A stretch of 64,000 nt of DNA from Thermotoga petrophila RKU-1. Its GTDB lineage: Bacteria > Thermotogota > Thermotogae > Thermotogales > Thermotogaceae. The position numbers were made by a program, and so were the translations under genes. The stretch is taken from positions 434,001 through 498,000 of the forward strand of contig NC_009486.1 of the NCBI RefSeq assembly GCF_000016785.1, in the 5' to 3' direction. Shown here piece by piece: positions 2,815 through 33,676 of the stretch; within the stretch, counting starts at the first letter, position 1; each line of letters starts with the position of its first letter. The notes beneath the pieces were generated by a model. It did not search any database. It was given only the letters and a program-made list of their open reading frames with translations, and had not been told where the DNA came from.

Positions 2815-3836
2815 CTGAGTAAAAAAGAGTGGATCAACATAATTCTGGCGCTGGCTTTTGGATTTCTCGCCGTCTTTTTTATTTTCAGGGAAGTAGATCC
2901 CGCTGAATTTTCCAGATATTTTCATTTAAAATCTCTCCTTTACATGTTCCTTCTCTGCGGAACATTCGTTTTTTCTATTGTCATAGACTCTCTCAGAATG
3001 AAATGGCTTTATTCGTTCGTATGGAAAGAGAAATTTCCGCTGTACGATGCCTTCTTCAACAATTACATGAGTTTTGTTTTCAGCATGCTCACTCCTTTCT
3101 ATTTCGGAGGACAGTTTTTTCAGACGTACCACCTTTCAAGGATGGGTTTCAGATCTGAACACAATGTGAACGTGATTCTTTCCAGATTCGTAGAATACCT
3201 GATCTCTGTTACTGTTCTTTCGATTCTGGGCCTTGTGAGATACAGAAACCTTCTCTTCTCGAACGCACTTTTGACCTCAAAGTTGATACTTCTCGCGTAT
3301 CTCATTAGTGTATCGTTCATAGCCGTTTTGATGGTTTCACTGATAAATCCTACTCTCATTGCACGTCTTTTTAACGTTTTCAAGAGAATAGGGTGGATAG
3401 ATCGACTCATCAAAAAGATCACCAAAATAGAAGATTGGGATACCAGATTCCTGGAATGGACAGAAAAATTGAAAGAAAGCGTTCAAGTACTCTGGAAAAG
3501 TGGCTTTATGTTTTTCGATTTTCCTCTCACTTTCATTTCCCTGCTTGTTCAATCTTTTGTTCTCTACCTTGCCATCTGGCTCACATCCGGAAAAATAGGT
3601 TTTCTCGACGTCACAGGCCTCTTCTATTTCCTGAGTTTGGTCGTGTTTTACATACCCACTCCTGGAGCGAGTGGAGGAGTGGAAGCGGTTTATCAGATCG
3701 TTTTTTCCAAGATTTTGAATTCTTCTGAAAAAACACTCGCCTCCATTCTCATCTGGAGGATTTCTACCTATTATCTTCCGATATTCATCGGTATAGCATT
3801 CCTCTTGATTTACCGCTATCCGAAGGAAGTGGCAAA

Positions 3837-3840
<4 letters not shown>
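2815..3840 (+). CDS. Flippase-like membrane protein (LPG synthase TM / UPF0104 family), apparent CTG start
   Basis: Multi-pass membrane protein of the lysylphosphatidylglycerol synthase TM-region family. The first ATG (2944) would drop the first membrane segment. The frame is open back to 2800 and encodes SKKEWINIILALAFGFLAVF then FREVDP, which is how the family normally begins. No ATG, GTG or TTG exists between the upstream stop (2797) and 2944. A CTG at 2815 sits about ten bases after GAGGAGG (2799-2805), so I use it, giving 341 residues. The family's conserved TPFYFGGQFFQTYHL and PTPGASGGVE loops are present. Exact function unknown; relatives transport lipid-linked substrates. The 3' end overlaps the next gene (ATGA). 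Confidence 0.75.
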
Positions 3841-6120
<2,280 letters not shown>

Positions 6121-30695: not shown

Positions 30696-31838
30696 TTGAA
30701 AAAGATCGGTATCATCGGCGGTGGCCAGCTTGGCAAGATGATGACCCTCGAAGCGAAGAAGATGGGTTTTTACGTGATAGTGCTCGATCCAACCCCCAGA
30801 AGCCCCGCTGGGCAGGTGGCGGACGAACAGATAGTCGCAGGCTTTTTCGACTCAAAAAGAATTGAAGATCTGGTAAAAGGTTCAGATGTTACCACCTACG
30901 ATCTTGAACACATCAACGTTCAGACGCTGAAGAAACTCTACGACGAGGGCTACAGAATACATCCCTCTCCGTACACCTTGGAAATCATACAGGATAAGTT
31001 CATTCAAAAAGAATTTTTGAAGAAAAACGGCATCCCAGTTCCCAGATACAAACCGGTGAAGGATCTGGAAAGCGACGTCAGGGAGTTCGGTTTCCCTGTT
31101 GTTCAAAAGGCGAGAAAAGGAGGATACGACGGCAGAGGTGTGTTCATCATAAAAAACGAAAAAGATCTCGAAAACGCTATAAAAGGCGAGACCTACCTTG
31201 AGGAGTTCGTTGAGATAGAGAAAGAACTCGCTGTCATGGTGGCGAGAAACGAAAAAGGAGAAACAGCGTGTTATCCCGTGGTGGAGATGTACTTCGACGA
31301 AGATGCGAACATCTGCGATACGGTGATAGCACCTGCCAGAATAGAAGAAAAACATTCGAAGATCGCCAGAGAAATCGCAACGAGTGTTGTAGAGGCGTTA
31401 GAAGGTGTCGGTATCTTTGGAATAGAGATGTTTCTCACAAAACAGGGTGAGATACTCGTCAACGAGATCGCTCCACGCCCACACAATTCCGGCCATTACA
31501 CCATTGAAGCGTGTGTGACGAGCCAGTTCGAACAGCACATAAGGGCGATCATGAACCTGCCTCTCGGATCAACGGAGCTTCTCATCCCCGCGGTGATGGT
31601 GAATCTCCTCGGTAAGGAAGGATATTATGGGAAACCCGCCCTCATTGGATTGGAAGAAGCTCTGGCCATAGAAGGTCTTTCGCTTCATTTCTATGGAAAA
31701 AAAGAAACCAGACCGTACAGAAAAATGGGACATTTCACGGTGGTGGACAGAGACGTTGAAAGAGCGCTCGAAAAAGCGCTCAGAGCGAAGAAAATACTGA
31801 AAGTCGTCTCGGAGGAGGGAGCGATGTGCCAAGGGTAG
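30696..31838 (+). CDS. purK: N5-carboxyaminoimidazole ribonucleotide synthetase PurK (TTG start)
   Basis: PurK uses ATP and bicarbonate to carboxylate aminoimidazole ribonucleotide. The protein has 380 residues and an ATP-grasp fold: [20 protein letters not shown] at the start, [13 protein letters not shown] and [17 protein letters not shown] in the middle, and [17 protein letters not shown] with metal-binding residues. The frame is open upstream inside the previous gene, but TTG 30696 follows GGAGGGAGGAG and gives the family N-terminus. It overlaps purE by 13 bases. Confidence 0.96.
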
Positions 31839-32341
31839 GAATCATCATGGGAAGTGACTCCGATCTTCCTGTAATGAAGCAGGCAGCTGAAATTTTGGAA
31901 GAATTCGGAATAGATTACGAGATTACGATCGTTTCTGCCCACAGGACACCGGATCGCATGTTCGAGTACGCAAAGAACGCCGAAGAACGGGGAATAGAAG
32001 TGATCATTGCGGGAGCGGGAGGAGCAGCTCACCTCCCGGGAATGGTGGCAAGCATCACCCACCTTCCTGTGATAGGTGTTCCCGTGAAAACATCCACACT
32101 GAACGGTCTGGATTCACTTTTCTCCATAGTTCAGATGCCAGGGGGTGTGCCCGTTGCCACCGTTGCCATAAACAACGCGAAGAACGCGGGAATCCTCGCT
32201 GCGTCTATTCTGGGAATCAAATATCCGGAGATCGCAAGGAAGGTAAAAGAGTATAAAGAAAGAATGAAACGGGAAGTTCTGGAAAAAGCCCAAAGATTAG
32301 AACAAATTGGTTACAAAGAATATCTGAACCAGAAAGAGTAA
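31826..32341 (+). CDS. purE: N5-carboxyaminoimidazole ribonucleotide mutase PurE
   Basis: PurE moves the carboxyl group to make CAIR, the step after PurK. The 171-residue protein has the class I marks: [16 protein letters not shown] (phosphate loop), [10 protein letters not shown] with the catalytic His, and [13 protein letters not shown]. It starts at GTG 31826 inside the end of purK. The presence of purK supports the two-step bacterial route. Corresponds to TM0446, of which a structure exists. Confidence 0.97.
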
Positions 32342-32345
32342 CTTG

Positions 32346-32354
32346 TGATAAAAT
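32346..32354 (+). promoter_or_regulatory. Extended -10 promoter before the hydF leader
   Basis: TGATAAAAT (extended -10 with TAAAAT hexamer) lies 5 bases after the purE stop. Initiation about 7 bases later would give an RNA beginning close to base 32361, exactly where the structured leader starts. No strong -35 is visible. Confidence 0.6.
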
Positions 32355-32360
32355 TAACAT

Positions 32361-32448
32361 GAAAAAGACCGTTCCACCTGAGGTGGAGGGCACCCGACAC
32401 CGAGGGGGAACTCACCCCTTCGGTCGTGCGAAGGGGATTTTTCTTTAT
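32361..32448 (+). promoter_or_regulatory. Attenuator or riboswitch-like leader upstream of hydF
   Basis: Three hairpins can be drawn. Hairpin 1: TCCACC / GGTGGA (32373-32387). Hairpin 2: ACCGAGGGGG (32399-32408) with CCCCTTCGGT (32415-32424), 10 pairs including one G-T. Hairpin 3: CCCCTTCG (32415-32422) with CGAAGGGG (32429-32436), 8 perfect pairs, followed by ATTTTTCTTTAT. Hairpins 2 and 3 share CCCCTTCG and cannot form together, which is the layout of a terminator/antiterminator switch. The T run ends just before the hydF ribosome site. I do not recognise a known riboswitch consensus. Confidence 0.7.
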
Positions 32449-32461
32449 AGAGGGTGATATC

Positions 32462-33676
32462 GTGAGATTGCCGGACGCTGGTTTCAGGAGATACATCGTT
32501 GTCGCCGGAAGAAGAAACGTCGGGAAATCATCCTTCATGAACGCACTCGTTGGACAAAACGTGTCCATCGTGAGTGAATACGCAGGCACCACGACAGATC
32601 CCGTTTACAAATCCATGGAGCTTTACCCCGTAGGCCCTGTAACGCTGGTCGACACTCCTGGGCTCGATGATGTGGGAGAACTTGGAAGACTCAGAGTGGA
32701 GAAAGCAAGGAGAGTATTCTATAGAGCGGACTGTGGAATACTCGTAACAGACAGCGAACCGACACCGTACGAAGACGACGTTGTCAATCTTTTCAAAGAG
32801 ATGGAAATTCCCTTCGTAGTTGTCGTAAACAAAATCGACGTTCTTGGAGAAAAGGCCGAAGAGCTGAAGGGACTCTACGAAAGCCGTTACGAAGCGAAAG
32901 TACTCCTTGTCTCGGCTTTGCAGAAAAAGGGATTCGACGATATCGGGAAGACCATCTCCGAAATTCTTCCGGGTGATGAAGAGATTCCTTACCTCGGTGA
33001 TCTGATAGATGGCGGCGATCTTGTGATCCTCGTGGTCCCTATAGATCTCGGTGCTCCAAAGGGGAGGCTCATCATGCCTCAGGTCCACGCGATCAGGGAA
33101 GCCCTCGACAGAGAAGCCATCGCCCTCGTGGTGAAGGAAAGAGAGCTCAGGTACGTGATGGAAAACATAGGGATGAAACCAAAACTCGTCATCACAGACT
33201 CTCAGGTGGTAATGAAAGTAGCGTCTGATGTCCCGGAAGACGTGGAACTCACCACCTTTTCCATTGTGGAGTCACGATATCGAGGCGATCTGGCCTACTT
33301 TGTGGAAAGCGTGAGAAAGATAGAAGAGCTGGAAGACGGAGACACTGTTGTCATCATGGAAGGCTGCACCCACAGACCTCTCACCGAAGACATCGGAAGG
33401 GTGAAGATTCCAAGGTGGCTTGTGAACCACACGGGAGCCCAGTTGAACTTCAAAGTCATAGCGGGAAAGGATTTCCCGGATCTCGAAGAGATCGAAGATG
33501 CCAAACTCATCATTCACTGCGGAGGATGTGTTCTGAACAGGGCAGCTATGATGAGAAGGGTGAGAATGGCAAAAAGACTCGGTATTCCCATGACGAACTA
33601 CGGTGTGACGATCTCTTACCTCCATGGAGTACTCGACCGGGCGATACGTCCCTTCAGAGAGGAAGTGAAGGTGTGA
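32462..33676 (+). CDS. hydF: [FeFe]-hydrogenase maturation GTPase HydF
   Basis: HydF is the scaffold on which the diiron subcluster is assembled before transfer to the hydrogenase. The 404-residue protein has the GTPase domain first (G1 [10 protein letters not shown]3 VDTPGLDD, G4 NKID; residues 10-175), then a dimerisation domain. The C-terminal iron-sulphur domain has EGCTHRP and HCGGCVLNR (CxH...CxxC ligands). GTG 32462 follows GAGGGTGAT. hydE and hydG are not in the window. Expression appears to be set by the leader upstream. Confidence 0.97.

Follow-up and report, generated by a model that had tools for sequence, protein, structure and literature searches.

The stretch of DNA analyzed here (the window) comprises 64,000 nucleotides of Thermotoga petrophila RKU-1, positions 434,001 to 498,000 of contig NC_009486.1, in a genome of 1,823,511 bases. 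A gap at 32342 to 32461 on its plus strand, the strand of all features given below, separates an upstream open reading frame named purE in a preliminary description of this DNA (31826 to 32341) from hydF (32462 to 33676), which starts with GTG and encodes the [FeFe]-hydrogenase H-cluster maturation GTPase (TIGR03918; 536.7 bits, cutoff 325.6). The purE stop codon lies 5 bases upstream of an extended −10 element, TGATAAAAT (32346 to 32354), which likely belongs to the hydF promoter; the block GTGATAAAATTAAC was kept in all seven Thermotoga genomes compared (L001 to L007), and the flanking purE end was variable. Read-through from purE could bypass this promoter. Further downstream are an antiterminator hairpin of 10 pairs (32399 to 32424), formed by ACCGAGGGGG (32399 to 32408) with CCCCTTCGGT (32415 to 32424), and an intrinsic terminator hairpin of 8 pairs (32415 to 32436) followed by ATTTTTCTTT, with a T-rich tract at 32437 to 32446. 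A likely Shine-Dalgarno sequence for hydF, GAGGGT, occupies 32450 to 32455. Both hairpins and the extended −10 had been proposed in the preliminary description, and all three are present. It also had the RNA start exactly at the structured part; the start more likely falls at ~32361, roughly 10 nucleotides (nt) upstream of the structure.

Absent from that description was a sensor helix (32371 to 32411), predicted to decide between the two hairpins. It is an irregular helix of ~41 nt in the order P1, GA/GA, P2, GA/GA, P3. On the evidence of folding and covariation, P1 pairs the 5′ strand GUUCC-A-CCU (32371 to 32379) with the 3′ strand GGGGGAAC (32404 to 32411). Internal loop 1 has GA on its 5′ side (32380 to 32381; GA/AA conserved in 77 distinct sequences) and a conserved GA on its 3′ side (32402 to 32403), P2 pairs the covarying strands GGUG (32382 to 32385) and CACC (32398 to 32401), and internal loop 2, likewise recognized by conservation, has GA at 32386 to 32387 and at 32396 to 32397. 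The P3 stem-loop, GG-GCAC-CC (32388 to 32395), keeps its outer pairs and varies in its loop.

The whole leader (32359 to 32445) folds at −40.4 kcal/mol (z = −3.8; none of 200 shuffles as good); a scan of 10 kb for terminators alone found 11 compared with 10.9 expected, which is not above chance. When the leader has been transcribed to 32411, the sensor helix is the minimum-energy fold (−22.8 kcal/mol). The antiterminator is favored by about 5 kcal/mol when the RNA ends at 32424 to 32430, and the sensor plus terminator are favored by 5 kcal/mol when it ends at 32436. Since the antiterminator takes the 3′ strand of the sensor helix, the two are mutually exclusive, so that the expression platform excludes the sensor as in riboswitches. 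The calculated stagewise energies are the profile of a co-transcriptional decision, of which we infer the direction and kinetics. A 5′ hairpin, UCCACC-UGA-GGUGGA (32374 to 32388), was considered as a partner in the antiterminated state and rejected, as it is not conserved.

In alignments fitted to the covariance model (98 distinct sequences), standard pairs made up 93.8% of the pair cells, and two-sided changes occurred at 9 of 13 pairs, including the central P2 helix. Two-sided cells numbered 188, compared with 59 in shuffles (0 of 500 as high) and at most 35 in slid-partner controls. The covarying P2 variants were GGUG/CACC, GAUG/CAUC, GGUC/GACC, and GAUC/GAUC. A first alignment of 33 sequences, made with MAFFT, had 34 double changes versus 14 in shuffles, with the number of pairs showing two-sided changes not above shuffles. 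Conservation is concentrated on the internal loops and their flanking pairs, and the unpaired loop nucleotides are nearly invariant across phyla. The conserved, covarying sensor structure is of the kind expected of a riboswitch. Both sensor strands read YCY-GA-NNNN-RA-GGR, with the same consensus at every position outside P2, and the site is therefore a pseudo-twofold RNA duplex.

Two kinds of output accompany this sensor. A terminator lay downstream in 65 of 80 matches; the run of pairs joining its 5′ arm to the sensor 3′ strand had a mean length of 11.3 (shuffled arms, 5.9). Members of family f5 have their Shine-Dalgarno sequence (GAGGAGG) in the P1′ strand, adjoining the start codon. Either layout, be it the terminator, whose 5′ arm pairs with the 3′ strand of the sensor, or the Shine-Dalgarno sequence within P1′, predicts that expression would be OFF once the sensor helix has formed.

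The distribution of the RNA was examined in 103 Thermotogota genomes by a pattern search, followed by a covariance model built from 33 sequences and its successors. All seven Thermotoga genomes, along with four genomes from other genera, have the sensor helix and terminator immediately before hydF. The pattern search revealed many further copies, often several kilobases upstream of hydF, which lead operons beginning with TM1266 (TIGR03959) and hydG or with an [FeFe]-hydrogenase gene; the window genome has two copies, one at hydF and one before TM1266-hydG-TM1268-hydE. According to the covariance models, the RNA is present in 64 of the 103 genomes, namely, in 64 of 70 with hydG versus 0 of 33 without it (Fisher's test, 3e-21). 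Nearly all aligned matches (74 of 76) were directly upstream of TM1266, hydG, hydE, hydF, or [FeFe]-hydA, the remaining two being an ABC transporter site (L204) and a chance match (L211), and good matches all adjoin TM1266, hydG, hydE, hydF, or an [FeFe]-hydrogenase gene, with a transport gene in two cases. Matches in G095, G097, and G098, obtained with a model that had been trained with L211 (R2), were discarded, and model R3 was built without it. A limitation of the element to hydF or to one genus is rejected by both the pattern and the model searches.

Several loci have features of their own. At L204, the RNA (398 to 444) lies between the end of an [FeFe]-hydrogenase gene and an NMT1-like ABC transporter (binding protein, permease, and ATPase; downstream 575 to 2930), and a transporter of the same kind stands between hydE and hydF at L082 (7187 to 9618). 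The NMT1-like transporter may import an H-cluster precursor. Most hyd operons, including L174 and its relatives, carry a frame of ~84 residues between hydG and hydE (TM1268) that has no Pfam match. In G089, two frames share the HydG sequence (L206, downstream 326 to 1731), probably because of an error in sequencing or because the gene is broken. G026 carries a second hydF that is divided into two pieces (L078, downstream 2988 to 4006), with an intact hydF and its own leader copy elsewhere in that genome. The leader copy at L225 (477 to 520) has a Shine-Dalgarno end and is followed by unrelated insertion-like sequence.

Beyond Thermotogota, the covariance model found the RNA in at least three phylum-level groups. 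In a set of 287 genomes from other groups it matched G138, G220, and G379, all at TM1266-hydG, and two further phylum-level searches gave matches in 12 of 82 genomes and in 32 of 125. Of 31 loci inspected outside the phylum, 29 precede TM1266, one precedes a TonB-dependent receptor gene, and one is a chance match. Model matches in G291 and G363, with no hyd gene downstream, were read as chance. Matches outside Thermotogota from a single-pattern scan of all species genomes, with low model scores and no visible terminator, were taken as chance as well; that scan was blind to the GAUG/CAUC form of P2. Upstream of TM1266 genes, a model-free descriptor recovered the architecture in 17 of 70 cases, some of them with a very different P2 (UCGC/GCGA or CCGC/GCGG); it matched none of 14,000 Markov sequences and only 2 of the 1,538 other pieces.

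Three further observations were made. At L312, a copy of the Shine-Dalgarno form (1501 to 1544) is directly upstream of the TonB-dependent receptor gene (from 1549), a possible uptake gene of the same regulon. In genus g308 (L260 to L282), a strongly conserved AT-rich block, CCUAARUGAAUAACURUUAAUGUUUAUCAURAAGG, precedes TM1266 by about 40 to 80 nt and resembles a derived version of the leader element with P2 as GUGA/UCAU. A second, copy-like element (CUGAUCCARAGG ... CUGAUGGARAAG) covers the ribosome site and TM1266 start codon at L230, L234, L247, L285, L287, and L288; it could represent another translational version, or it could reflect conservation of the start of the protein.

Taken with the strong covariation in related genomes, on which the preliminary description had made its riboswitch- or attenuator-like reading of the leader depend, and with a terminator/antiterminator layout that recurs with compensating changes, these data indicate that the hydF leader is almost certainly a conserved cis-regulatory RNA. 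Leader control had been proposed for hydF; this reading is supported, and the gene associations point beyond hydF to the whole H-cluster assembly regulon. The translational form in other lineages was outside what that description could see, and the consensus that it did not recognize indeed has no Rfam family (see below).

Among the controlled genes, TM1266 is the candidate effector. It occurs in all 64 Thermotogota genomes with the RNA, including those in which it lies outside the RNA-led operon (G049, G056, G058, G061 to G063, G069, and G070). Among hydG-containing genomes, the RNA is present in 64 of 65 with TM1266, the remaining one (G048) having TM1266 and hydG and no recognizable RNA, versus none of five without TM1266. 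These five belong to a single genus, and the losses are only suggestive, because one genus and the adjacency of the RNA and TM1266 allow a single deletion. As expected of an autogenous leader, the RNA site adjoins the gene of the candidate protein and is inherited together with it, with the losses confounded by linkage. A fold comparison of TM1266 returned its own structure (2NZC, four chains), followed by the regulatory domain of NikR and ACT domains, and the protein is without the DNA-binding part. A symmetric TM1266 oligomer on the symmetric RNA site would be the simplest reading and is the one that we favor. In T. neapolitana under CO2, TM1266, hydG, and hydE were upregulated 5.98-, 6.39-, and 7.52-fold, respectively, and hydF 1.28-fold (PMC7039931). 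The operon is therefore regulated, and the small change in hydF implies that the two leader copies need not respond alike. A point against TM1266 is that many TM1266 genes outside Thermotogota are without a clear match to the strict descriptor, which is limited to the 17 of 70 given above.

Beyond the conserved structure, covariation, two outputs, and gene association given by sequence comparison, we infer the OFF direction, TM1266 as effector, and any ligand. RNA starting near 32361 would fold the sensor helix first. As 32415 to 32424 emerges, the antiterminator would capture the sensor 3′ strand and transcription would proceed into hydF; an effector holding the sensor helix would instead leave 32415 to 32436 to form the terminator, turning hydF off. 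In another lineage, the same helix would cover the Shine-Dalgarno sequence and block translation. The effector would most likely be a TM1266-family protein, a small NikR/ACT-like oligomer that places a symmetric unit on two YCY-GA-N4-RA-GGR half-sites, its binding perhaps controlled by a hydrogenase-related ligand. For the statement as a whole, a widespread cis-regulatory RNA family over H-cluster assembly genes with a switch that is OFF when the sensor forms and TM1266 as effector, our confidence is somewhat better than balanced. We give about even odds to the reading that TM1266 grips an RNA helix of twofold symmetry and thereby switches the genes for [FeFe]-hydrogenase assembly in several bacterial phyla via termination or translation, which would constitute a new class of protein-RNA regulation as well as a new RNA family.

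The main rival to TM1266 as effector, possible though we lean against it, is that the leader is a true riboswitch whose helix binds a small molecule or ion of H-cluster synthesis (a precursor, metal, or product), with TM1266 merely one of the controlled genes. Strong conservation of the internal loops and outer pairs around a variable P3 loop would suit a ligand-binding site, as would the terminator and Shine-Dalgarno outputs and the wide distribution. Many small-molecule riboswitches likewise precede the genes of their own pathway with such output forms, and the regulon seems to include importers (the NMT1-like ABC transporter and the TonB-dependent receptor). Against it stand the small size of the sensor, a single irregular hairpin of about 41 nt with no junction or pseudoknot seen, the twofold symmetry of the site, and the strict company of TM1266 even when unlinked.

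Explanations that dispense with an effector fare worse. An attenuator in which transcription speed, temperature, or ribosome traffic sets the balance between hairpins would be consistent with alternative folds within about 5 kcal/mol at each stage, but we regard it as quite improbable, given that the unpaired loop nucleotides hardly vary across phyla, that the terminator-less translational form keeps the same sensor, and that the leader reading frame lacks conservation. In related Thermotoga species, the frame that opens at 32359 is shifted or interrupted by a stop, and a leader-peptide attenuator was rejected. It is also conceivable, if barely credible, that the hairpin is an ordinary purE terminator next to an unrelated hydF promoter, the antiterminator having arisen by chance. 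The hairpin on its own is not above chance and its position is just after purE, yet dozens of genomes have the same sensor, antiterminator, and terminator, with covariation, in front of other hyd genes, which contradicts this explanation.

To our knowledge, little work has addressed how bacteria regulate the synthesis of the [FeFe]-hydrogenase active site, and TM1266, whose structure dates from 2006, has reportedly been labeled a "putative regulator" since then with no mechanism attached. With the hyd leader come a defined RNA site and a set of target genes, together with a prediction for the sign of control and a candidate effector whose structure is solved; the leader is thereby a testable handle on the regulation of hydrogen metabolism. 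Rfam would also gain a widely distributed RNA family, and the leader points to transporters that may feed H-cluster synthesis. A window scan with Rfam 15 (4227 models) gave no match over the leader at the gathering score, a local permissive scan gave subthreshold chance matches only (best, 18.4 bits versus a cutoff of 49.5), and no Rfam 15 family was found in the loci of eight relatives. No paper joining a riboswitch with hydF, hydG, TM1266, or hydrogenase maturation was found in open full text, supplements excluded. The element goes unmentioned in the main text of candidate-RNA papers of 2010 and 2024, a comparison that does not extend to the list of 224 candidates (Weinberg 2017). The RNA family is new in that it is absent from Rfam 15 and from the open full text found.

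The hyd leader shares with transcription-terminating riboswitches and riboswitch candidates a conserved sensor helix, an exclusive antiterminator and terminator, a version that covers the ribosome site, and association with one pathway. It differs from them in having no Rfam 15 family, in its twofold-symmetric hairpin with two tandem-purine internal loops, and in the constant company of a candidate protein effector. Tandem G-A mismatches also recall the kink-turn; however, the alignments show symmetric, duplicated 2×2 loops in which the GA pairs are not flanked by a 3-nt bulge. The TM1266-like family (PF21699 and TIGR03959) already bears the database name of putative regulator of the iron-only hydrogenase system; neither entry proposes an RNA target, and the RNA site is proposed here. 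Autogenous protein-binding leaders include ribosomal-protein leaders and attenuation of the TRAP or PyrR type. As in those systems, the leader is often followed directly by the gene of the putative binder, which is kept in the genome when unlinked, whereas the candidate protein here has a NikR/ACT-like fold (2NZC). We know of no report of a NikR/ACT-like protein binding a leader RNA.
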